DNA of 64,000 bases, taken from assembly GCF_020991475.1 (NCBI RefSeq), contig NZ_JAJMPA010000001.1:1612001-1676000 (forward strand), in the 5' to 3' direction. The notes below the pieces were generated by a model that was not told where the DNA came from, made no database searches, and saw only the letters and a program-made list of their open reading frames with translations. This DNA is from Pedobacter sp. MC2016-14 (GTDB taxonomy: Bacteria; Bacteroidota; Bacteroidia; Sphingobacteriales; Sphingobacteriaceae). Made by a program: the position numbers and the translations under genes. Positions 25,342 to 39,316 of this stretch are shown here, piece by piece (positions within the stretch are counted from its first letter, which is position 1; each line of letters opens with the position of its first letter).

Positions 25342-26817
25342 TTATTTAATCAGGTGTTTAATCTGGATCAGCTCATGCTCTTCCAAATATCTCCATCTTC
25401 CTCTCGGAAGGTCTTTTTTAGTTAAATTTCCGTATACCACACGATCCAGCTTCACCACATCATAACCTAAATGTTCAAAAATACGGCGAACAATTCTGTT
25501 TTTTCCGCTGTGGATCTGTATGCCAATTTCTTTTTTAGAAGCACCAGCTACATAAGATACCGAATCTGGTTTAATGATCCCATCCTCAAGTTCCAATCCA
25601 AACTCAATTTTATTTAAGTCGCCCTGACTTAAACTTCTGCTGAGTTCAACATGGTACATCTTAGTTACACTATTTCTTGGGTGTGATAATTTATCTGCCA
25701 GGTCACCATCATTGGTGAGCAACAACAATCCGGTAGTATTGCGGTCCAGACGACCAACAGGATAGATGCGTTCTCTGCTTGCTTTTTCTACCAGTGCCAT
25801 TACTGTACGGCGCTCCTGCGGATCGTCCGTAGTGGTGATGTAGTCCTTCGGTTTATTTAGCAGCACGTAAACTTTCTTCTCCCGTTTTAGTAATTCTCCG
25901 TTGTAGCGGATGTCATCTTTTGCAGGGTCAACTTTATGGCCCAGTTCAGATACGACTTCACCATTTACAGAAACCACACCTGCGGCAATCAGCTCGTCGG
26001 CTTTACGACGGGAGCAAATCCCTGCATTGGAAATGTAACGGTTTAAACGGATCAGACCATCGTCTACTTTAGCTGGGGCCTCTTTTCTTGCCCGCATAAC
26101 CATAGGCTTTTCGCCTGGCTTACGGAAAGTAGGCCTGCCATTTTCATCCTCTCTCTTGCGGAAAGGTCTGCTGTCTGTAGATCTGGATGTGCTGCTTTTT
26201 TTATTGTCAAATGTTCTGAATGGTCTTTCGCCATCCGCGTCAAAGTTGTCTTTTTTTACATAACTGCGGTTTTCATTTCTAGGATATTCTTTAGAAGAAC
26301 CTTCCTTAAATGCACGCGGTTTGGCATCTCTTGGTGCTCCGCCTTTAGTTCCGAAGCTTTTTCCTGCCGGGCGTTCACCATCTCTGGAAGGTTTAGCTCC
26401 AAAAGGTTTTGATCCGCCTGATTTGAAGTTTGAACGCTCAGTTGGTCGTTCTCCCGAACGCTCGTTTGAACGCTCTCCTGAACGTTCTCCGCTACGCGTT
26501 CTGCGTTCACCTTCTCTGGGTGATCTGGAGTCCTGACGGTCGCCATCTCTGGCAGGCCTGGCGCCAAAAGGCTTAGCGCCACCTGTTGACCTGGAATCTT
26601 TGGCTTTGAAATCTGTACGTGGACGCTCTTCAGATTGTTCTCCTGAGCGGGTGCCGGAACGTTCTCTGGAGCGCTCTCCGGCTCTGGGTGGTTTTGAATC
26701 TGATGCCGTTCTTCCTGGCCTTGACTCTCTTTCCTCACTTCTGTTTTTTCCAGTTGTGCTTCGGTTTCCCGGTTTGGACTTGTCATCCCGACTGTTCCTG
26801 TTGTTGCTTTTATTCAT
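25342..26817 (-). CDS. rluB: Ribosomal-type pseudouridine synthase (RluB/RsuA family) with long charged N-terminal arm
   Basis: The 491-residue enzyme has its catalytic half at the C-terminus: an S4 RNA-binding domain (~255-310, LNRYISNAGICSRRKADELI) and an RsuA/RluB core with the catalytic aspartate in GRLDRNTTGLLLL (about 357). It should isomerise a uridine in 23S or 16S rRNA; RluB is the best guess. The first ~235 residues are low-complexity, rich in Arg/Ser/Glu/Gly with GERSGERS-type repeats, and long alternative frames over this stretch are artefacts of the repeated composition. Such basic arms are common in Bacteroidota RluB proteins and probably bind RNA non-specifically. Confidence 0.88.
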   Translation of the reverse strand: MNKSNNRNSRDDKSKPGNRSTTGKNRSEERESRPGRTASDSKPPRAGERSRERSGTRSGEQSEERPRTDFKAKDSRSTGGAKPFGARPARDGDRQDSRSPREGERRTRSGERSGERSNERSGERPTERSNFKSGGSKPFGAKPSRDGERPAGKSFGTKGGAPRDAKPRAFKEGSSKEYPRNENRSYVKKDNFDADGERPFRTFDNKKSSTSRSTDSRPFRKREDENGRPTFRKPGEKPMVMRARKEAPAKVDDGLIRLNRYISNAGICSRRKADELIAAGVVSVNGEVVSELGHKVDPAKDDIRYNGELLKREKKVYVLLNKPKDYITTTDDPQERRTVMALVEKASRERIYPVGRLDRNTTGLLLLTNDGDLADKLSHPRNSVTKMYHVELSRSLSQGDLNKIEFGLELEDGIIKPDSVSYVAGASKKEIGIQIHSGKNRIVRRIFEHLGYDVVKLDRVVYGNLTKKDLPRGRWRYLEEHELIQIKHLIK

Positions 26818-28595: not shown

Positions 28596-29072
28596 TTAGT
28601 CTCCAAATCCATCTAAATTAATTAATCCTTTATTATTTTCAGTGATTATTCCATTATCAAAGGAGTTTTGAAATCCTTCTCCCTCATTTCCCAATAGATT
28701 AGTTCCTTTTAAAAATATATTATTACATACTTCAACTTTTGCTTCAAATTGACAATCAAAGAAATTTACAAATTCTTCAAATGTATTATTTGAAATCTTG
28801 ATTGGCTGTTCATTATGTCCCCCCATTTGATAGTCTACATAGCTTAATACTTTATTGTTATTAAAAATTAGGCCCCCTTTAGGCCAGTAAGAATGAAATA
28901 ATAGTTTTTCTATTATACAATTGTCAATAATGATTTCGGAATCAGACTCAAATAGATCAAAATCTAATATTTTTATTTTTGAATTCGAAATGTGGCATGT
29001 CGATGTCTTGATATCTAATTCAGAACTACGCAGTGTGCCTATATTTTTACCGTCAATTTTCATATTTACCAT
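28596..29072 (-). CDS. Candidate immunity protein for the RHS C-terminal domain
   Basis: The 158-residue protein has no signal peptide and consists of short repeating hydrophobic/polar strands (KIKILDFDLF, IIIDNCIIEKLLF, ISNNTFEEFVNF, EVCNNIFLKG), suggesting a right-handed beta-helix or pentapeptide-like fold. Its ATG overlaps the last 7 bases of the RHS gene, a coupling typical of toxin-immunity pairs; a second in-frame ATG (residue 4) is possible. Placement directly after a variable RHS C-terminus, cytoplasmic nature and coupling are the evidence for immunity; no known immunity family was recognised. Confidence 0.55.
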   Translation of the reverse strand: MVNMKIDGKNIGTLRSSELDIKTSTCHISNSKIKILDFDLFESDSEIIIDNCIIEKLLFHSYWPKGGLIFNNNKVLSYVDYQMGGHNEQPIKISNNTFEEFVNFFDCQFEAKVEVCNNIFLKGTNLLGNEGEGFQNSFDNGIITENNKGLINLDGFGD

Positions 29073-32000
29073 TTTACATTCCCTAAATTAATTACCGTTT
29101 CTTTTGTTACTCGACTTGAAATGCCGGGATACATATTCATAGATCGAACTACTCCATTTTCAACATTTACCATAATGGTTTTCTGAATTCCATTAACGGT
29201 TACATGCAAAGTATTATTTCCTGAGGTTAGCTTCGACATATTTTTAGTTACTAAAGTAGATGCTTTACTAAGCATAGTTTCCATAGATAGACCTAAATCA
29301 GCATGTCTGCCTTTTGCAAATGCATGTTTAGCGAATTTCGCTAGAACTTCACTACTTATCGTCACAGTTTTTGTAGAAAACCATCTTGAAGAATAAGTCA
29401 AAAGATTTGGTAATTCTGCGGCGATTAAGTCCCTTGCCATGGCAATTATAATAAGAATTTTATTGAGTTCACGAAGGGATTCTAATTGTGCAACTCTCAT
29501 CTCATGCCTTTCTTCGGGAGTCGCCCGTCTTTCTTCAAACTTTTTTGGTTTCCCAGGATCCCCTTCTTTTTCAACAAAGTAACCCGGCTTTTGACCAAAA
29601 CCGCCATCCCAAACTTCATCGTCTACATTATGGTAGCTTATGGGGCCATATTTAGCAGTCTCTTTGCTCCCAGCTGAAATTCCGTCAGGAGTACCAGTTG
29701 TACTCTTCCCATCTGGGTCAATATTCTTAATAGGATTGTTTTCTGTGTAGTTATAAGGGTTAAATGCATAAGATTCCTCACTCAGAGGATCTATAACGTT
29801 CCATCTTCCTATAACCGGATCATAAAACCTTGCGCCGTAATCATACTGCCCATCCTCATTATTTGAATTTAATTCATCTTGAATCTCCTTTCCATTGTAA
29901 AGGTATTTGTTGGTTAAAGATACAGGACTTCCAGAGGATTTACGCTTTCCAAAGGGATAATAATCATCACTTTGCAGTCGTTCAAGTTGTTGGGTTATCG
30001 GGTTCTGCTGAAAACTAAAGCGTACATTACCTAGATGGTCCATTAAATTGTAATTATACTTATAGTTTCCACTATTATTTCTGGCCAGTCCCTCATCTGT
30101 ATGAATAACGTCGATTACATTTCCATCATATTCAATTCCGTCGATATAGTGGCGTGTTATCCCATTGCTAACTTTCCTTAGTTTACGACCCGTTGCATCA
30201 TAGGTATAAGCCAAATTAAGTCCCGATTTTGTAGCAAGGGCAGGCAAGTTTAAAATGTTATAAGTAAGATTTACTCCTGTTCGGCCATCTAAGTCAGCGT
30301 TCCCATTATCATCGTAATGATAAATTCCGGTGGCTGATGAGCCGTTAGTTACCTGCTCTAATTTGGTCTCATTATAAGCATAGGTGCCCGCTAATCCTCC
30401 GTCCCGGCTAAGGCTTTTAATATTGCCCATTACATCATAGGTTAAGGCCTCGTTCATTACAATTCCTGTACTCACGCCATTAAGCAATCGATTAAGGGCA
30501 TCATATGTGTAAGTAAAATTATTAGATAAGGTGGGACCTGCAGCCCAGCTTTGATCTGCAATATTTCCATTGTATTGAGGTGTTGTTCCATCCTGATATT
30601 TCAACTCAAAGCTAAATTCGTTTGAAATAGACCGTTTTAACCATCCACGCTCATTGTAGAAATAGTCTGTATGTTGCAAAAAGTTGATTTCATCTGCACT
30701 ATGTAGGTACTTTGTTTTTAATTGCCCTAATTCATTGTATTCTAATTTGCTGATGACAAGTTCCTGAGGTGAATTTATGGACTCCTTAGTTAAAATTTTT
30801 CTTCCTGCGTGATCGTATGTGTAGCTGTTAGTGATTGTTGTCAATACTGATCCTGAGTGATGGATCCGGAAGCTATTTTTAGGGCTACCAGAAAAATAAT
30901 AATAAAGTTCAGTTTCGTCATAATTGTTTGCATTCAGACTGCCAGAAAGGTAATGCTGCTTAAAATTCTTTTTTAGCCTGCCTTCTTCATCATAAAAGTT
31001 TAAACTCGATAGCATGGTATTTGTTCCAAGCACTCTCACTTTAGTACCAGTTAAAAGTCCTCTTGTCATTTTACTTCCTGTGTAATTATAGTCTGTACCA
31101 CCTGGAAAAGAGTAATCATCATAATAGTTAACAGTATTGATCTCAAAACCATCCCGAGGGAAACTCAAATTTCCGTAATCGGAAGTCCCAATTCTTTCCT
31201 CCCAAAGTACAGTTTCAGTATTTACTAATGTCTGTAGTTCCGCTCGTGATAAGCTATTGGAATAAATTCCAGATTGTATTAATCTGCCTACAGCGTCGTA
31301 TTTGCTGTAGATCCAGATGCCTGATTTTCTTTGTTTTGGGTCCTGTGTTAGGATAGGCTGATCAAGTATATTATAAATAAGGCTATTCCAGTTTAGTTGT
31401 CCGGGAATTCGCTTTTCAATTAATCTATTCCGATGATCATAGCGGTATTGATAGCAATAACCATCAAGTGTCGCTTGATTGATTTCACCAGCATCTGGGT
31501 TTGTATTTGCAGGTAGCACAAAACACAGATTGCCAAAATCATCATAAACATAGTAAGTGGAAATTGTCTCGACAATTCCATCTTTCAAGTTGAATACACG
31601 CTTAGCAATCAACTTGCCTTCGTTATTTTTATATTCTTCAGTAGTGCATGGTTTTCCAGATACCCAGTTTTCATTTTTTGAAATGGTTAAATTTAATGTA
31701 TTAGCTTCATAGTATCCTGTTTCTGATAATGTTCTTTCATGTTCGTGTCCAACTACTACCGATGATGCCGCCCTATATAATCGCACAGCAAAACCATCAT
31801 TGCCGTAAGCTAAGGAAATATTGTTAGCACGATATTCCATTTTCTGGGTATGCCCTAAACTATTATTTGCTATTGGTTGCCATACATCTCCTTCTGCGCC
31901 TTGTTCTGTACTACGGTTTAATGGTGACGGTTCAAATACTGTTACCTCGTATGGGCTGGACATATCTTTATAATCCATATTCGGTAAGCTAAAGTAATTT

Positions 32001-34867
32001 TTTTGCGCACTATTACTATAGCCATTACTTCCGGTTAGCGCGTCTGGGCGATAAGTTCCTGGTGCTCCTTCTGATGTGGTATAAGGAAGGTATTTTATAC
32101 TTTCACGCCCGAAAGGGTCATGTGCGTTAGGTTGAATGAGGTCTTTAGTTCCGTTTCCATTGCCTTTAACCCGTACAGTTTGCAATGGCCTGCCTAGACC
32201 GTCAACATATTGGATGCTGGTTTGAACCTGCATCTTATCGCAACTGGCAGCAACTACAGCTGCCTCTGTCGTTAAATCTGCGACCAAAGGTGTATAAGTC
32301 AGCACATAATTTTGATTCTGACTTGGCGTGATACAAGCAACAGGCAGTGTAACTGCAAAGGCTACCGTAGCGCTAGCAAAACTGCCAAAGCCATATGCAG
32401 TAATTGTGTAGTTAGTTAATGGAGATGCCACAATTGGCGTACCACTGATGGTACCTGTTAGGTTATCAAATACCAGACCTGCAGGAAGCGCAGGACTAAT
32501 GGAATATGGACTGGTTATCAGTTTTCGAATCCGGTTACCTGCATTCTCGGCTACATACATATTCCCGCTACCATCCCTTGAAATACCGAAGGGCGAGTTC
32601 AGCCGCGCAGCAGTACCAGGACCATTGGTTGAGCCCGGAGTAAGTGCACCAGTAAAAGTAGTGACCACACCAGCCGGGGTAACCTTGCGGATCATGTGGT
32701 TCCCCTGATCTGCCACATATAAATCTCCTGAATTACCAATCACCAGATTGTTAACATCCACAAATCTTGCTGCTGTGCCAGTCCCATCCGCATATCCCGC
32801 AGTATTGTTTCCCGCGATTGTAGAAACAACCCCTGAAGTACTAATCTTTCTTACCTGTCTGCTTACCCGGTCAGCTACGTACATATTTCCCTCAGCGTCA
32901 ACAGCCAGGCCCATTGGCTGGTTAAACGTGGCAGACAGTGCCGGTCCATTTGCCGATCCGGCAGTGCCCGTTCCGGCAAAATTACTGACCACACCTGCAG
33001 GTGTGATTTTTCGGATCTTATTGTTTCCCCCATCGCCGACATACAGGTTCCCCGAAGCATCAAAAGCCAGACCCATGGGGTTGTTAAAACTAGCCCCGGT
33101 ACCCATACCATTGGCCGAACCCTGTGAACCACTCCCTGCGAACGTACTTACTACACCTGTCGGGGTAATTTTACGAATCCTGTGGTTCTGCTGATCGGTA
33201 ACAAAAAGATTACTATTGGCATCAATGGCTATAGAAGAAGGATGCTGAAAACGAGCGAATGTGCCTGTCCCGTCTAAATAGCCTCCATATCCCACCCCCG
33301 CAAAAGCGCTTACTACACCTGTAGGAGTAATCTTCCGAATTTGGTGGTTTCCGGCATCACATACATAAACATTGCCCAATGCATCAACTACTGAATTTAG
33401 AGGATTGTATAGCGTGGCCGATGTGCCCGTTCCATTTGCAGAACCGGCATTTCCGTTCCCCGCAAAATAAAACGTTTGTCCAGGTGCGCAAACTGCACCA
33501 CCGGTATTGGCAGGTGTTAAGGTCGTAGCAGTACCCACAGCGAAAGTTGGCATAGCCGCGTAGCTGATGAGTGGTGGCAGCGCCGTCATTATTATATTTA
33601 TTGTTGAAACAATGTTTCCCGTATTAGAAGAATAGCCTTCTGAAACCAGGTAATACGTGCCTGCAGATAAAGTTGTTTGTATAAAAGCCTGCGATCCTAC
33701 GCACGGAGATGTAGAACCTACATAAGTATCATCATTTGACGTAATCAGGTTTCCAGAGGCATCGAGCACATGCATATAGGTATCAAAACCACTGCCACAG
33801 TGGGATAAAGTCACGTCAGCAGTTCCATTGAGCACAAACTTATAATAAATATCATTGCTGCTCTGTCCATAATCATTCCCCAGACAAGGATCCGCATTAC
33901 TTCTGGTATCCGTAAAACTCCCCGGCGCGTTAAAACTCCCCGCATTAATAGCCGTAGCCATATTAGCTCCGGGGATAGGAGTAGGACTACTTGCATTAAT
34001 AGTAGTTATAATATTTCCCGTGTTGTTACCTGCCCCTTCAGAAACCACATAATAAGTGCCTGCTGGAAGCAGCATTTGTATAAAAGCTTCAGAACCTAAA
34101 CAAGGCGATAATGCAGAATCATCGTTCGAGGCAATCAAATTCCCCGAAGCATCCAGCAAGTGCATGTAGGTGTCAAATCCACTACCGCAATGAGAAAGCG
34201 TTACTGTGGAAGCGCTGCTTAAAGTAAACTGATAGTAAATGTCATTATTCGGCTGTCCATATTCATCACCCATCCCTGAAGTACCGTTACTCCTTGAATC
34301 TGAAAAAAAACCTCCACAAGATCCCATTGTCCCCGCAACAATTGGATTATTAATGGTAGCGCCATCGGGCTGAACAGCGGAGGGTATTGCATACATGAAC
34401 ATCTGTATCGATCCACTATAGGAGGTATATCCGCTTCCTTCTACCGCAACATAATATGTACCCGGAGCAAAAGTCTGAACTACCTCCGCCTGATAGCCAC
34501 AACTTCCGGAATAATCAGAATAAGCCACCGGATTATTATACTGATCCAACACATGCAGGGCCGTACTGATCTCACTTCCACAAGTACTGATCTGCAGTTC
34601 TGTGTAATCATTTAGAGTAAAGGTATACCACAAATCAACCCCGTACCCCCCGATACTATTGTAATAGGAATAAGTTTCCAAATAATGACTATCCAGAAAA
34701 TAAGGATTGCCTCCACTGCCCAGTACACCTGCAGGAATGGCATCGTACATCCAGGTGCCGGACTGTGCTTTAGTAGAATTAAAACCCGCGCAGAAGAAAA
34801 CAAGAAGGGTTAACAACCAGCCGCGGCCGGTTTTTTTAAGAGCAGAAAATGAGCATTTAGGTGGCAT
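29066..34867 (-). CDS. Giant exported RHS/YD-repeat protein with NHL propeller and C-terminal candidate toxin
   Basis: This 1933-residue protein has a signal peptide (WLLTLLVFFCAGFNSTKAQ). Domains in order: three related beta-sandwich repeats with CGSGFDTYMHLLD-like motifs, resembling pre-peptidase C domains (~36-425); about six NHL repeats (GNHQIRKITPTGVV-type, ~460-790); a DUF6443-like start of the RHS shell (NYVLTYTPL, SIQYVDGLGRPLQTV, ~850-960); YD repeats; and the RHS core ending YDYGARFYDP, NPYNYTENNP and DPDGK (~1715). The last ~212 residues have unrelated composition. The final ~100 (with HAFAKGRHADLGLS, MNMYPGISSR) look like a compact toxin, possibly a BECR-fold RNase, though that fold is a weak guess. 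A small overlapping gene follows. Confidence 0.85.
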   Translation of the reverse strand: MPPKCSFSALKKTGRGWLLTLLVFFCAGFNSTKAQSGTWMYDAIPAGVLGSGGNPYFLDSHYLETYSYYNSIGGYGVDLWYTFTLNDYTELQISTCGSEISTALHVLDQYNNPVAYSDYSGSCGYQAEVVQTFAPGTYYVAVEGSGYTSYSGSIQMFMYAIPSAVQPDGATINNPIVAGTMGSCGGFFSDSRSNGTSGMGDEYGQPNNDIYYQFTLSSASTVTLSHCGSGFDTYMHLLDASGNLIASNDDSALSPCLGSEAFIQMLLPAGTYYVVSEGAGNNTGNIITTINASSPTPIPGANMATAINAGSFNAPGSFTDTRSNADPCLGNDYGQSSNDIYYKFVLNGTADVTLSHCGSGFDTYMHVLDASGNLITSNDDTYVGSTSPCVGSQAFIQTTLSAGTYYLVSEGYSSNTGNIVSTINIIMTALPPLISYAAMPTFAVGTATTLTPANTGGAVCAPGQTFYFAGNGNAGSANGTGTSATLYNPLNSVVDALGNVYVCDAGNHQIRKITPTGVVSAFAGVGYGGYLDGTGTFARFQHPSSIAIDANSNLFVTDQQNHRIRKITPTGVVSTFAGSGSQGSANGMGTGASFNNPMGLAFDASGNLYVGDGGNNKIRKITPAGVVSNFAGTGTAGSANGPALSATFNQPMGLAVDAEGNMYVADRVSRQVRKISTSGVVSTIAGNNTAGYADGTGTAARFVDVNNLVIGNSGDLYVADQGNHMIRKVTPAGVVTTFTGALTPGSTNGPGTAARLNSPFGISRDGSGNMYVAENAGNRIRKLITSPYSISPALPAGLVFDNLTGTISGTPIVASPLTNYTITAYGFGSFASATVAFAVTLPVACITPSQNQNYVLTYTPLVADLTTEAAVVAASCDKMQVQTSIQYVDGLGRPLQTVRVKGNGNGTKDLIQPNAHDPFGRESIKYLPYTTSEGAPGTYRPDALTGSNGYSNSAQKNYFSLPNMDYKDMSSPYEVTVFEPSPLNRSTEQGAEGDVWQPIANNSLGHTQKMEYRANNISLAYGNDGFAVRLYRAASSVVVGHEHERTLSETGYYEANTLNLTISKNENWVSGKPCTTEEYKNNEGKLIAKRVFNLKDGIVETISTYYVYDDFGNLCFVLPANTNPDAGEINQATLDGYCYQYRYDHRNRLIEKRIPGQLNWNSLIYNILDQPILTQDPKQRKSGIWIYSKYDAVGRLIQSGIYSNSLSRAELQTLVNTETVLWEERIGTSDYGNLSFPRDGFEINTVNYYDDYSFPGGTDYNYTGSKMTRGLLTGTKVRVLGTNTMLSSLNFYDEEGRLKKNFKQHYLSGSLNANNYDETELYYYFSGSPKNSFRIHHSGSVLTTITNSYTYDHAGRKILTKESINSPQELVISKLEYNELGQLKTKYLHSADEINFLQHTDYFYNERGWLKRSISNEFSFELKYQDGTTPQYNGNIADQSWAAGPTLSNNFTYTYDALNRLLNGVSTGIVMNEALTYDVMGNIKSLSRDGGLAGTYAYNETKLEQVTNGSSATGIYHYDDNGNADLDGRTGVNLTYNILNLPALATKSGLNLAYTYDATGRKLRKVSNGITRHYIDGIEYDGNVIDVIHTDEGLARNNSGNYKYNYNLMDHLGNVRFSFQQNPITQQLERLQSDDYYPFGKRKSSGSPVSLTNKYLYNGKEIQDELNSNNEDGQYDYGARFYDPVIGRWNVIDPLSEESYAFNPYNYTENNPIKNIDPDGKSTTGTPDGISAGSKETAKYGPISYHNVDDEVWDGGFGQKPGYFVEKEGDPGKPKKFEERRATPEERHEMRVAQLESLRELNKILIIIAMARDLIAAELPNLLTYSSRWFSTKTVTISSEVLAKFAKHAFAKGRHADLGLSMETMLSKASTLVTKNMSKLTSGNNTLHVTVNGIQKTIMVNVENGVVRSMNMYPGISSRVTKETVINLGNVKW

Positions 34868-35497: not shown

Positions 35498-38400
35498 ATG
35501 AACATGAATCTAATTCTTCGTCTCATTCCATTTTATTTTTTGTGTTTAAGTACTATAGTAGCTAAGGCTCAGGCGGATATTACGCAACCTAAAATTATAC
35601 CTGCGTCACCTACAGCCGATGGATTAGGCCTTTATGGAAGTATCCCTATTAGCTACTATACTGGATTGGCCGATGTATCCATTCCAATACATGAACTAAA
35701 AGGTAGGGAGATAACTTTGCCAATATCATTAAGTTATAGAGGGTCAGGAGTAAAAGTTGAAGATAATGCAAGTTGGGTGGGTCTTGGTTGGTCGTTAAAT
35801 TCCGGCGGGGTAATTACCAGGGCTATCAGAGATAAGTCTGATTTTAGCTCAAACCCAGCGGTGTTACCACTTCCGGTGGGTATTGAAGATAGATTCAATG
35901 CACTACATCATTCTTATTTTAGCGGTTATGATCTGGAACCCGATGTATTCTACTATAATTTTAATGGTAAATCAGGTAGTTTTGTATTTGATAGACTACA
36001 CAATGCTAAATTTAATCACTTTGATGATATCAAAGTTCAGCGTTATTTTACTTCTACTCCTTCTGGAGCTGACGAAGTAAAATTTGAAATTACTACCAGC
36101 GATGGCACTAAATATATTTTTGATGCCAGAGAAACCGGAATGACCGCCGACCCGACTGCTTGGTTTTTAACAAAAATAATTTCTCCATCCGGTAAAGAAG
36201 TGTTTGATTTTATATACGAAAATGAATCTTACCGCTATCAAATTGCTGCGAGATACGATGAATCTATTAGCTTGGCGGGCGGTAGAAGAAGTAGTGGATA
36301 TGATAACACACCCATTAATATTTCAGGAAAACGTTTAAAGCAAATTAACACAAATACTGTTGGTAAAATTGAATTCATCCCAAATTCGCAGCTAAGAAAA
36401 GATCTGCTTAATGGAACAGGTTATGCCTTAAAAGATATTGTGATCTATAATTCAAACAATGAAATACTTAAAAAATTCAGACTTGAGACTGAAGACATTG
36501 AAACCTCAATTAGATTGGATCCGGGAAATGGAATATATTGGTATAGTGAATACCTGAATTGGCGAATGTATTTGAAAAGCTTGACGGAATACGATGCTAC
36601 CGAAACATTGTCGAAACCGCCTTATAAGTTCAGTTACTTCGATAGGGATATAAATGGAAAAGATAAGCTACCCCATAGAGTTTCCTATGCCCAGGACCAT
36701 TGGGGATATTATAATGGACAAGATAATAATGCGTCTCTTATAGAGACATATGTAGGGCCTTTTGGAACATGGGATCCCGTTTTCGACGCTTTTCAGCCCA
36801 TTTGTTTGAATGCTTCTATAAATTATAATTATAAAGCCGACTTCAGCTATACCTATTTTACGGGAAACCGTACGCCATCTTTCCCGGATATGCGAGGGGG
36901 TACACTTAAAACTATTCAATATCCCACGGGGGGATATACTGATTTTGAATACGAACCTCATCAGGGGAATTATGAAAGTCAGGAAGTTCTAATAAGGTAT
37001 ACAGGAATTGTAGGTGGAATGAGAATTAAAAATATAACAACCTTTGACAATTGCAGTGATATTACGGGTAAAAGAGAGTTTACCTATTCTTTAGGAAAGT
37101 TGTTTAGTTATCCAAAGTATCGCACTTACACCTTTAACAACGGTGGAGATCCAGGTATATTTCAAATATGTGGAATCACTTTCCCCAATGATTACGACGA
37201 TTCAAATTTATATCTTACGCTCAGTCCCAACTCGTTCACTCATCCCTCTTCTACAAAAGGCTCTAATATTGGTTATTATGAGGTCAAAGAATTTGTTGCT
37301 GGCAACGGATGCACAATATACAATTATGGAGGTACTAGCCTATTAGATGCAGATGAAAATTTCGAAACTTTGAAGTTTATCTCAAAGCCTGCTACATTTT
37401 TTCCAGAAGAACGTGACTTGGCTCTTGGATCGTACTTTACTTGGCCTTATAACCCATCCAAAAATAATGATTGGAGGCGTGGCTTACTCATAAAGAAAAC
37501 GATTGAAAATGCTTACGGAAACTTAGTCCAATCAGAAATTTATGAATATGGTTTTAAAGAGCTTGGAACTGTTTGGGGAATGCGAATGAAGATGTTAAGG
37601 AATGGTATAGATTTTTATTATGCGCAATATCAAATACCTTATGGTTGGAGTTACCTGAAAGAGAAAACTATTATAGAAAGAAATCCTCTTAGCAACTCAT
37701 ATCATAGTACTACAACAAAAATGATTTATGAGCCCTTGTTTAAATATAAACAACGTGATGCTACTTCTACCAGTGATGGAGACAGCCTGATTAATAGTTA
37801 TAAATATCCGTTCAATTACAATGCAGAACCCTATATTTCAATGACGGGAAGAAATATAGTTTCTCCGGTAATTGAAGTACAAAGTTTTAAGGGTACTAGA
37901 CAACTCAGTACAACTAGTAAATTTTACAAAGATTGGTTTAATGATCAGTCTTTATTTTCTCCGGAACTTGTACAAATCAAACATGATATTAATAGTTTGC
38001 CAGAAACACGACTTAAGTTTCATTCTATAAGTAGCAATGGCAATGTACTTTCCGTTTCAAAAGAGAAAGCAAGTCCTGTAAGTTACATATGGGATTACAA
38101 GTCTAGCTACCCGGTTGCAGAAGTAAAGAATGCAAGCGAAGCGGAGATTGCATACAGTTCCTTTGAAGCCGATGGTCATGGGAATTGGCAGTATGGCAGT
38201 GGGACAACAGTAGATCCAAATGCCAAAACGGGATTAGCATCCTATTCACTAACAAGTAGTAATTCGATAACAAAAACAGGTCTTTTGTCAACAAAAACGT
38301 ATGTCGTCTCCTATTGGAGTAGAAATGGAAGCTATGATGTAAATGGTATCATACCCACAACAGGCCCCACAAACTTTGGCTGGACTTATTACGAACATCA

Positions 38401-39316
38401 ACTGACAAATCTCAGCCAAGTTACTATTATTGGAAATGGTCAAATTGATGAATTGCGTTTATTCCCAAAAGGTGCATTTATGACCACTTATTGTTATAAA
38501 CCAGGGGAAGGAATTATTGCCTCCACAGATGAGGCAAATAAAGTGACTTATTATAATTATGATGGTCTGGGTAGAATGATAATGGTAAGAGACCAGGATA
38601 AAAACATCCTAAAAAAATTAGATTATAATTATAACACCGCTGGTCAAGCCGCATGTAATCAGGTTGTTTACTATAACGTGGAAAAGTCACAGTCATTTTT
38701 TAAAGGTAATTGTGTTGTTGCAATCCCGTATAAAGTATCAGCTAAAACATTCAGTTCCTTCATCTCGCAAGCGGATGCGGATCAAAAAGCTCAGTCTGTT
38801 ATAGATAAATATGGGCAGGCATACATAAATAGTAATGGAATATGTGTTTATTATAATGTTGATAAAAGCGGGAACTATACGGCAATCGGATGCCCAGCCG
38901 GATATTATGGTCGGGAGGTCTATGTAAGTGTTCCAGCAAATCTTTACTCCTCAACTTCTTCTCAAGCCGAAGCCGATGCCTTAGCGGTGGAGTATGCGCA
39001 AAATTATGCTAATGTATATGGCTGTTCCAGAATTATTCCAGAAACAGTGAATGTTAATTATGATGTGAATCAACCTGGGTTTCGGGTTAAGTTGATAAAT
39101 GATGCAACCCACATAGAATATGATTACGAGCTTTCCATTGGCGGAGGTTTATTAGGGCAAGTTCCTTCTGGTTCTTACACCATAACTATTTATAGCTATT
39201 ACGACACTAGCACTCATACTTTTGGTGCAGCAGAATATACTGCAACTGGTAGCGGTAGCATAACCTTCTATAGTGTTTCACTTGACGTCGAAAATATATC
39301 TATTTCGGTTTATTAA
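35498..39316 (+). CDS. Large exported YD/RHS-type protein with DUF5977-like repeats
   Basis: This 1272-residue protein starts with a signal peptide (ILRLIPFYFLCLSTIVAKAQ). The N-terminal third has the Bacteroidota RHS-like opening (GSIPISYYTGLADVSIPIHEL, WVGLGWSLNSGGVITR). A sparse set of YD-like motifs follows, including YYNYDGLGRMIMV (about 1024). Residues ~1068-1172 contain two repeats with VVYYNVEKSQSF, ADADQKAQSVIDKYGQAYI and ADALAVEYAQNYAN, matching my memory of DUF5977. There is no C-terminal RHS core (no DPxGK) and no toxin-like tail, so it is not an obvious effector; it may be a surface shell or partner of the divergent RHS protein. Confidence 0.8.
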   Translation: MNMNLILRLIPFYFLCLSTIVAKAQADITQPKIIPASPTADGLGLYGSIPISYYTGLADVSIPIHELKGREITLPISLSYRGSGVKVEDNASWVGLGWSLNSGGVITRAIRDKSDFSSNPAVLPLPVGIEDRFNALHHSYFSGYDLEPDVFYYNFNGKSGSFVFDRLHNAKFNHFDDIKVQRYFTSTPSGADEVKFEITTSDGTKYIFDARETGMTADPTAWFLTKIISPSGKEVFDFIYENESYRYQIAARYDESISLAGGRRSSGYDNTPINISGKRLKQINTNTVGKIEFIPNSQLRKDLLNGTGYALKDIVIYNSNNEILKKFRLETEDIETSIRLDPGNGIYWYSEYLNWRMYLKSLTEYDATETLSKPPYKFSYFDRDINGKDKLPHRVSYAQDHWGYYNGQDNNASLIETYVGPFGTWDPVFDAFQPICLNASINYNYKADFSYTYFTGNRTPSFPDMRGGTLKTIQYPTGGYTDFEYEPHQGNYESQEVLIRYTGIVGGMRIKNITTFDNCSDITGKREFTYSLGKLFSYPKYRTYTFNNGGDPGIFQICGITFPNDYDDSNLYLTLSPNSFTHPSSTKGSNIGYYEVKEFVAGNGCTIYNYGGTSLLDADENFETLKFISKPATFFPEERDLALGSYFTWPYNPSKNNDWRRGLLIKKTIENAYGNLVQSEIYEYGFKELGTVWGMRMKMLRNGIDFYYAQYQIPYGWSYLKEKTIIERNPLSNSYHSTTTKMIYEPLFKYKQRDATSTSDGDSLINSYKYPFNYNAEPYISMTGRNIVSPVIEVQSFKGTRQLSTTSKFYKDWFNDQSLFSPELVQIKHDINSLPETRLKFHSISSNGNVLSVSKEKASPVSYIWDYKSSYPVAEVKNASEAEIAYSSFEADGHGNWQYGSGTTVDPNAKTGLASYSLTSSNSITKTGLLSTKTYVVSYWSRNGSYDVNGIIPTTGPTNFGWTYYEHQLTNLSQVTIIGNGQIDELRLFPKGAFMTTYCYKPGEGIIASTDEANKVTYYNYDGLGRMIMVRDQDKNILKKLDYNYNTAGQAACNQVVYYNVEKSQSFFKGNCVVAIPYKVSAKTFSSFISQADADQKAQSVIDKYGQAYINSNGICVYYNVDKSGNYTAIGCPAGYYGREVYVSVPANLYSSTSSQAEADALAVEYAQNYANVYGCSRIIPETVNVNYDVNQPGFRVKLINDATHIEYDYELSIGGGLLGQVPSGSYTITIYSYYDTSTHTFGAAEYTATGSGSITFYSVSLDVENISISVY

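Follow-up and report, generated by a model that had tools for sequence, protein, structure and literature searches.

Ntox35 (PF15534) was described by Zhang et al. (2012; PMC3482391) as a predicted RNase of the BECR fold with two N-terminal histidines, and in its account of the family that paper lists no immunity protein. The BECR CdiA-CT toxins that have been characterised are presented in PMC9086364 as tRNases, with one exception that acts on rRNA, and the CDI toxin of structure 7m5f is also described as BECR (PMC8616854). Here we analysed an RHS gene and the small gene that overlaps its end, located in a 64,000-nucleotide stretch of DNA from Pedobacter sp. MC2016-14 (the window; all coordinates refer to it unless another locus is named). 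This genome belongs to the same family as Sphingobacterium CZ-2, in which a related locus was found. The best reading of the C-terminal domain of the RHS protein is that of a predicted metal-independent RNase delivered between cells, as suggested by its sequence and its modelled fold.

The RHS gene and its variable C-terminal region

The features of the locus are collected in Table 1. From the N- to the C-terminus, the RHS protein shows a signal-peptide-like segment, which by eye resembles a Sec signal peptide, followed by PPC, NHL repeats, DUF6443, the RHS core and a variable toxin tail. The shell carries the RHS-associated core expected of an RHS toxin system, TIGR03696 scoring above its cut-off. 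Adjoining the RHS gene in divergent orientation, at 35498-39316 on the plus strand, lies the gene of a 1272-aa DUF5977 protein, in which an RHS repeat match was seen below cut-off only. The window also encodes, at 25342-26817 on the minus strand, a pseudouridine synthase-like protein with a long N-terminal extension that by eye is of low complexity and rich in Arg, Ser and Gly.

Table 1. Positions in the window of the RHS gene, its C-terminal domain and the downstream gene.
Feature	Position	Strand	Details
RHS polymorphic toxin gene (predicted)	29066..34867	minus	1933 aa; from ORF list and domain matches
DUF6443 domain of the RHS shell	31850..32251	minus	residues 873-1006; PF20041, 113.9 bits against a cut-off of 27.8
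RHS-associated core domain	29708..29962	minus	residues 1636-1720; TIGR03696, 63.3 bits against a cut-off of 32.5
Variable C-terminal region	29069..29707	minus	residues 1721-1933; unrelated to the L052 tail
Toxin domain	29069..29353	minus	residues 1839-1933; predicted BECR-type fold, by sequence a divergent Ntox35 relative
His1848, first conserved histidine, predicted catalytic	29324..29326	minus	His in 7/7 aligned rows covering the position
His1855, second conserved histidine, predicted catalytic	29303..29305	minus	invariant in 9/9 aligned rows
Ser1909	29141..29143	minus	invariant in 9/9 aligned rows; predicted strand 3 of the meander
Predicted cytoplasmic immunity gene	28596..29072	minus	158 aa; ATG at 29072; acidic, pI 4.66; predicted beta-solenoid
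Overlap of the RHS stop codon with the ATG of the downstream gene	29066..29072	minus	7 bases; same in 5/8 loci

Four further RHS-like places were found in the same genome. The closest of them, L052 (C1 of this genome, match at 945429-946286), is a second RHS polymorphic toxin, 53% identical to the window protein over query residues 11-284 of the 321-residue core stretch. The alignment of the two proteins ends at residue 1720, just past the terminal DPDG of the core, and the tails that follow are unrelated. A common RHS shell up to this residue and complete divergence beyond it, with the C-terminal domain swapped, is the hallmark of a polymorphic toxin. Although L052 has the same RHS shell type, its tail is lipase-like (PF01764, Lipase_3-like, 18.9 bits, below the cut-off of 22) and the next gene encodes an ankyrin protein whose start looks lipoprotein-like by eye, whereas the window combines an Ntox35-related tail with a neighbour that looks cytoplasmic. 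A single type of shell with two tails, each followed by a different neighbour, is what would be expected of a polymorphic toxin system.

A sequence-only reading of this DNA had set the last ~100 residues of the RHS protein apart from the shell. The comparison with L052 bears out this separation, and the extent agrees with the conserved domain, which starts at residue 1839 (~29353), but not with the variable region, which begins already at residue 1721 (near 29707). Both motifs to which that reading drew attention lie in the tail, HAFAKGRHADLG at residues 1848-1859 and MYPGISSR at residues 1912-1919.

The toxin domain and its relation to Ntox35

Neither the toxin domain nor the downstream protein gave a match above cut-off in Pfam, NCBIfam, PHROG or PADLOC. 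For the window domain, Ntox35 was absent even among the Pfam matches at E <= 10, and the only member of its clade that touched this model, the domain of Sphingobacterium olei (L025), reached 15.7 bits against a cut-off of 23.6. The connection with the family was provided by a Bacteroidia protein (L037), found with the clade profile in 395 class genomes at E 4.5e-15, which passes the Pfam Ntox35 model with 36.3 bits. The window domain is 33% identical to L037 over 86 aa by BLASTP (E 3e-15 for the single comparison), and profile-profile comparison (hhalign) gave a probability of 98.4; homology to an accepted Ntox35 member was found in this way. Starting from L037, we also found an RHS protein on an Exiguobacterium plasmid (L050), a borderline Ntox35 with 23.5 bits for the domain and 20.2 for the whole protein. 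Judged from its sequence, the toxin domain is therefore not wholly new, being a distant relative of Ntox35; since it falls below the cut-off of the family, we do not count it as a Pfam member but assign it to a divergent clade related to Ntox35.

The two conserved N-terminal histidines of Ntox35 are present in the clade, with a spacing that differs by one residue (7 apart in the clade, 6 in L037 and L050). The second of them is invariant in all nine aligned rows, as are a G-x-N motif, an asparagine further on (usually as NG), a serine and a late glycine. Compared with L037 and L050, the clade lacks five residues inserted behind the second histidine and is ~7 residues longer ahead of the terminal strand. 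In Ntox35 a conserved Ser/Thr is expected in the C-terminal strand; the invariant Ser1909 sits on strand 3 of the four in our model. The identities of ADP-ribosyltransferase and of metal nuclease were set aside, as no supporting motif was seen by eye.

Direct searches with PF15534 gave 0/148 and 0/395 sampled genomes, numbers that are uninformative on absence because no control was detected either. No relative of the L037 domain was found in phages, and none of the 561 viral-contig stretches retrieved for the L037/L050 pair was confirmed.

The AlphaFold2 model of the toxin (mean pLDDT 81.5, most domain blocks 84-93) consists of two helices followed by strands at 64-72, 75-84, 87-95 and 105-112. 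It thus shows the N-terminal helices and the four-stranded meander that define the BECR fold as outlined in PMC3482391. Structural comparison gave a divided answer. The VIA neighbours of the model include several BECR members (7m5f, ParE, HigB2, NendoU and XendoU, Z 3.0-5.0), but type III pantothenate kinases, of unrelated fold, are tied with them, all in a range (Z under 8) where by the tool's own warning a match may reflect a common arrangement; Foldseek returned nothing at E <= 0.001 in PDB or BFVD. In the best group, the match was with chain C of 7m5f (Z 5.0, rmsd 3.5, 79 aligned), which, with 119 residues as against the 98 of the immunity protein, we read as the toxin. Given the tie, the structural match alone is not decisive and the claim is carried by the homology to Ntox35, for which reason the pantothenate kinase-like fold was set aside in spite of its equal Z. 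The earlier hint of a BECR-fold RNase fits both the predicted fold and this homology.

The pair might also be a genuine toxin-immunity pair in which the BECR-like fold serves an activity other than RNA cleavage, an alternative to which we give a minor but real chance. ParE, a gyrase poison, is an example of another activity on a BECR-like fold, and it is among the VIA neighbours of the model. PDB sequence searches (0 to 5 matches each, best E 0.15) gave no significant match to a solved nuclease, and the activity of Ntox35 is itself only predicted in PMC3482391. However, two conserved histidines, as in Ntox35, fit the RNase A-like mechanism proposed in that paper, and the characterised BECR CdiA-CT toxins, as presented in PMC9086364, are RNases. 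Cleavage of RNA is for these reasons the reading that we prefer.

The downstream gene and the two-gene cassette

In all eight distinct loci of the clade, the window included, an immunity-type gene homologous to that of the window lies directly behind the toxin. The other seven are from a Bacteroides MAG (L024), Sphingobacterium olei (L025), Hoylesella buccalis (L026), Sphingobacterium CZ-2 (L027), Parabacteroides distasonis (L028), S. puteale (L029) and a Bacteroidia (L036), and their immunity homologues show 36-49% identity to the window protein. Where the 7-base overlap of toxin and immunity frames does not recur, it is 10 bases in one locus and absent from two. The recurrence of the cassette in 8/8 loci indicates that the pairing is not due to chance.

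Among 301 genomes of the family, the toxin search gave seven matches at E <= 0.01, of which four are real: the window's own genome, G002, G601 and G667, the last three corresponding to L027, L025 and L029, respectively. The three weak ones (L006-L008, E 0.003-0.008) were dropped as unrelated genes or frames. The same four genomes hold the four best immunity matches. A search of 395 genomes from the phylum detected the window domain in two of them, its own genome counted. When genome contigs were searched with the single window domain, none of 73 stretches was confirmed; with a two-row alignment as query, six of 81 were (L024-L029). L036 and the divergent L037 came from the profile search, which covered 395 genomes of the class; 12 of its 16 matches (E 0.0018 to 0.05) were dismissed as chance matches once three of them (L038-L040) had been inspected. 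No relative of the window toxin was confirmed among 13 viral-contig stretches, and none was found in plasmids.

The domain sits on a long RHS frame in two loci only, the window with 1933 codons and L024 with at least 1285. The open frames that contain it in L025, L026 and L036 measure 258, 140 and 147 codons and do not continue a full shell; they could represent displaced cassettes or genes that have decayed. The toxin frame is broken within or at the domain in the remaining 3/8 loci, by a stop in L027 and by frame changes in L028 and L029, a count to be read with the sequencing errors that drafts may contain in mind. The immunity frame is open in all eight loci, including the three with a broken toxin frame, as would be expected if the protector outlasts a decayed weapon. 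By eye, two loci show what looks like an array of displaced cassettes after the pair: RHS-core-plus-tail fragments at 4794-5174 of L027, and toxin-like and immunity-like ORFs at 975-1735 of L029.

The downstream protein had been characterised in the sequence-only reading as repeat-rich and cytoplasmic, and its gene as overlapping the RHS gene by 7 bases. The overlap is exact, counted from the ATG at 29072 to the RHS stop codon; no signal peptide is visible by eye, and the model of the protein is a repeat structure, a beta-solenoid with a mean pLDDT of 85.4. VIA placed PL6 and PL3 lyases next to it, along with pentapeptide-repeat proteins, at Z about 10-11, and leucine-rich-repeat receptors lower; for repeats a Z of about 11 is in the range that the tool calls uninformative. 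Foldseek gave no PDB match at E <= 0.001. The immunity proteins are acidic in all eight loci (pI 4.3-5.5), as opposed to a pI of 9.1-10.7 in the five of eight toxin domains that could be taken whole, and an MGGHN patch is invariant in the eight immunity sequences. An identity as pentapeptide-repeat protein was set aside in the lack of a Pfam match above cut-off: the pentapeptide models matched none of seven cassette immunity proteins at E <= 10, and the L036 protein had none at E <= 1. Pentapeptide_3, whose cut-off is 27, gave lower scores with two distant stand-alone relatives (L014, 15.7 bits; L031, 21.0 bits).

The immunity search matched 14 of the 301 family genomes at E <= 0.01, with distant relatives in genomes without this toxin; five matches with E above 0.002 (L019-L023) were left unused. 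Stand-alone solenoid relatives were seen in other family genomes at L014 and L016-L018, and by eye L016-L018 have similar gene neighbourhoods, a hint that their role on the chromosome is a settled one. Four plasmid records hold relatives, three from Deinococcus (L030, 3938-4468; L031, 3941-4468; L033, 3944-4399), all stand-alone, and one from Bernardetia. None of 272 viral-contig stretches was confirmed as an immunity relative.

The downstream gene might be a conserved accessory factor of the cassette, such as a chaperone or co-toxin, and not an immunity gene. Beta-solenoids are not among the immunity folds named in the consulted passages of PMC3482391, and the invariant MGGHN patch could mean a more general role. 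On the other hand, a protein with no visible signal peptide would stay in the cytoplasm, where protection from an RNase acting there is needed, its charge is opposite to that of the toxin, its frame stays open in 3/3 loci where the toxin frame is broken, and the distant relative L030 lies near SMI1/KNR4 and DUF6210 genes. We consider an accessory role improbable, and the downstream solenoid protein probably protects its owner. That the RHS tail is degenerate and without activity, as the three interrupted and three short frames among the eight loci could suggest, is very improbable, because in the window all 1933 codons form one open frame and the domain retains the residues invariant in the alignment.

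The proposal of a toxin-immunity pair at the RHS C-terminus is therefore supported by comparative evidence, namely the eight cassette loci and the tail swap with L052. Its description as new holds for one half: the immunity protein has no curated family in the searched libraries, but the toxin is, by sequence, a divergent Ntox35 relative. The immunity protein is the more novel part, a solenoid family outside the searched libraries that accompanies a divergent Ntox35-related clade, and in the literature searched we found no beta-solenoid described as the immunity protein of a toxin of the Ntox35 type.

Proposed function and comparison with known systems

The computation showed a modular tail, a two-gene cassette that is conserved, a toxin domain homologous to Ntox35 with its histidines kept, folds as predicted by the models, and opposite charges of the two partners. 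With these at hand, we consider it likely that the locus is a polymorphic toxin-immunity module made up of an exported RHS protein, an RNase tail using His1848 and His1855 and an acidic solenoid blocker. Judging from its N-terminus and shell, the RHS protein would be exported and displayed; as the RHS architecture suggests for delivery, entry and release, its last ~95 residues would be set free in the cytoplasm of a neighbouring cell, where the basic domain would bind RNA of the target cell. If the relationship with Ntox35 and the predicted fold are a guide, RNA would then be cut without metal, with His1848 and His1855 as acid-base pair and an alcohol residue such as Ser1909 possibly assisting catalysis. 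The substrate is probably tRNA or rRNA, and tRNA is our first guess because the characterised BECR CDI toxins, in the description of PMC9086364, cut tRNA with the one rRNA exception. The acidic cytoplasmic solenoid would bind the basic toxin domain and cover its active site or RNA-binding face.

If the module works as proposed, the polymorphic toxins of Bacteroidota, among them those of Bacteroides, Parabacteroides and Hoylesella, would gain an immunity fold not recognised so far, and the Ntox35 lineage would reach past its current model. The pair is compact (about 95 and 158 aa) and would suit the study of partner exchange while a toxin lineage persists.

Pentapeptide-repeat proteins mimic DNA for gyrase. 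A more speculative proposal, which taken as a whole we regard as doubtful, is that the acidic solenoid resembles nucleic acid, mimics RNA and plugs the site of a BECR RNase, that the partner of an Ntox35-type toxin has been exchanged, and that the solenoids form a widespread uncatalogued immunity family. If this were true, Ntox35-type toxins would have swapped their partner wholesale within one toxin lineage, from TPR-like to solenoid, and the solenoid family, which also stands alone in Deinococcus plasmids and in other Bacteroidota, would be such a widespread family.

Among known systems, Ntox35 shares with the window a homologous domain on an RHS carrier, the two N-terminal histidines and, in the window model, helices followed by a four-stranded meander. 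The window domain differs in that it lies below the Pfam cut-off and is without the 5-residue insertion. The partners differ too, the window having a beta-solenoid whereas the neighbours of L037 (accepted) and L050 (borderline) are TPR-like, that of L037 below the TPR cut-offs. Within one toxin lineage there thus seem to be two unrelated partner types, the second of them seen in two loci only.

The CdiA-CT/CdiI system of Serratia marcescens BWH57 (7M5F), as described in PMC8616854, is likewise a BECR-fold polymorphic toxin with an adjacent immunity protein, but it is delivered by CDI and its immunity protein has 98 residues. This toxin is among the best structural neighbours of our model (chain C) but not among the PDB sequence matches of the window domain at E <= 10. 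The pentapeptide-repeat proteins MfpA, AlbG and Qnr and the PL3 and PL6 lyases resemble the immunity protein as beta-solenoids, at the VIA scores given above; their function differs, and the cassette immunity proteins had no match to the Pfam pentapeptide models at the thresholds given above.
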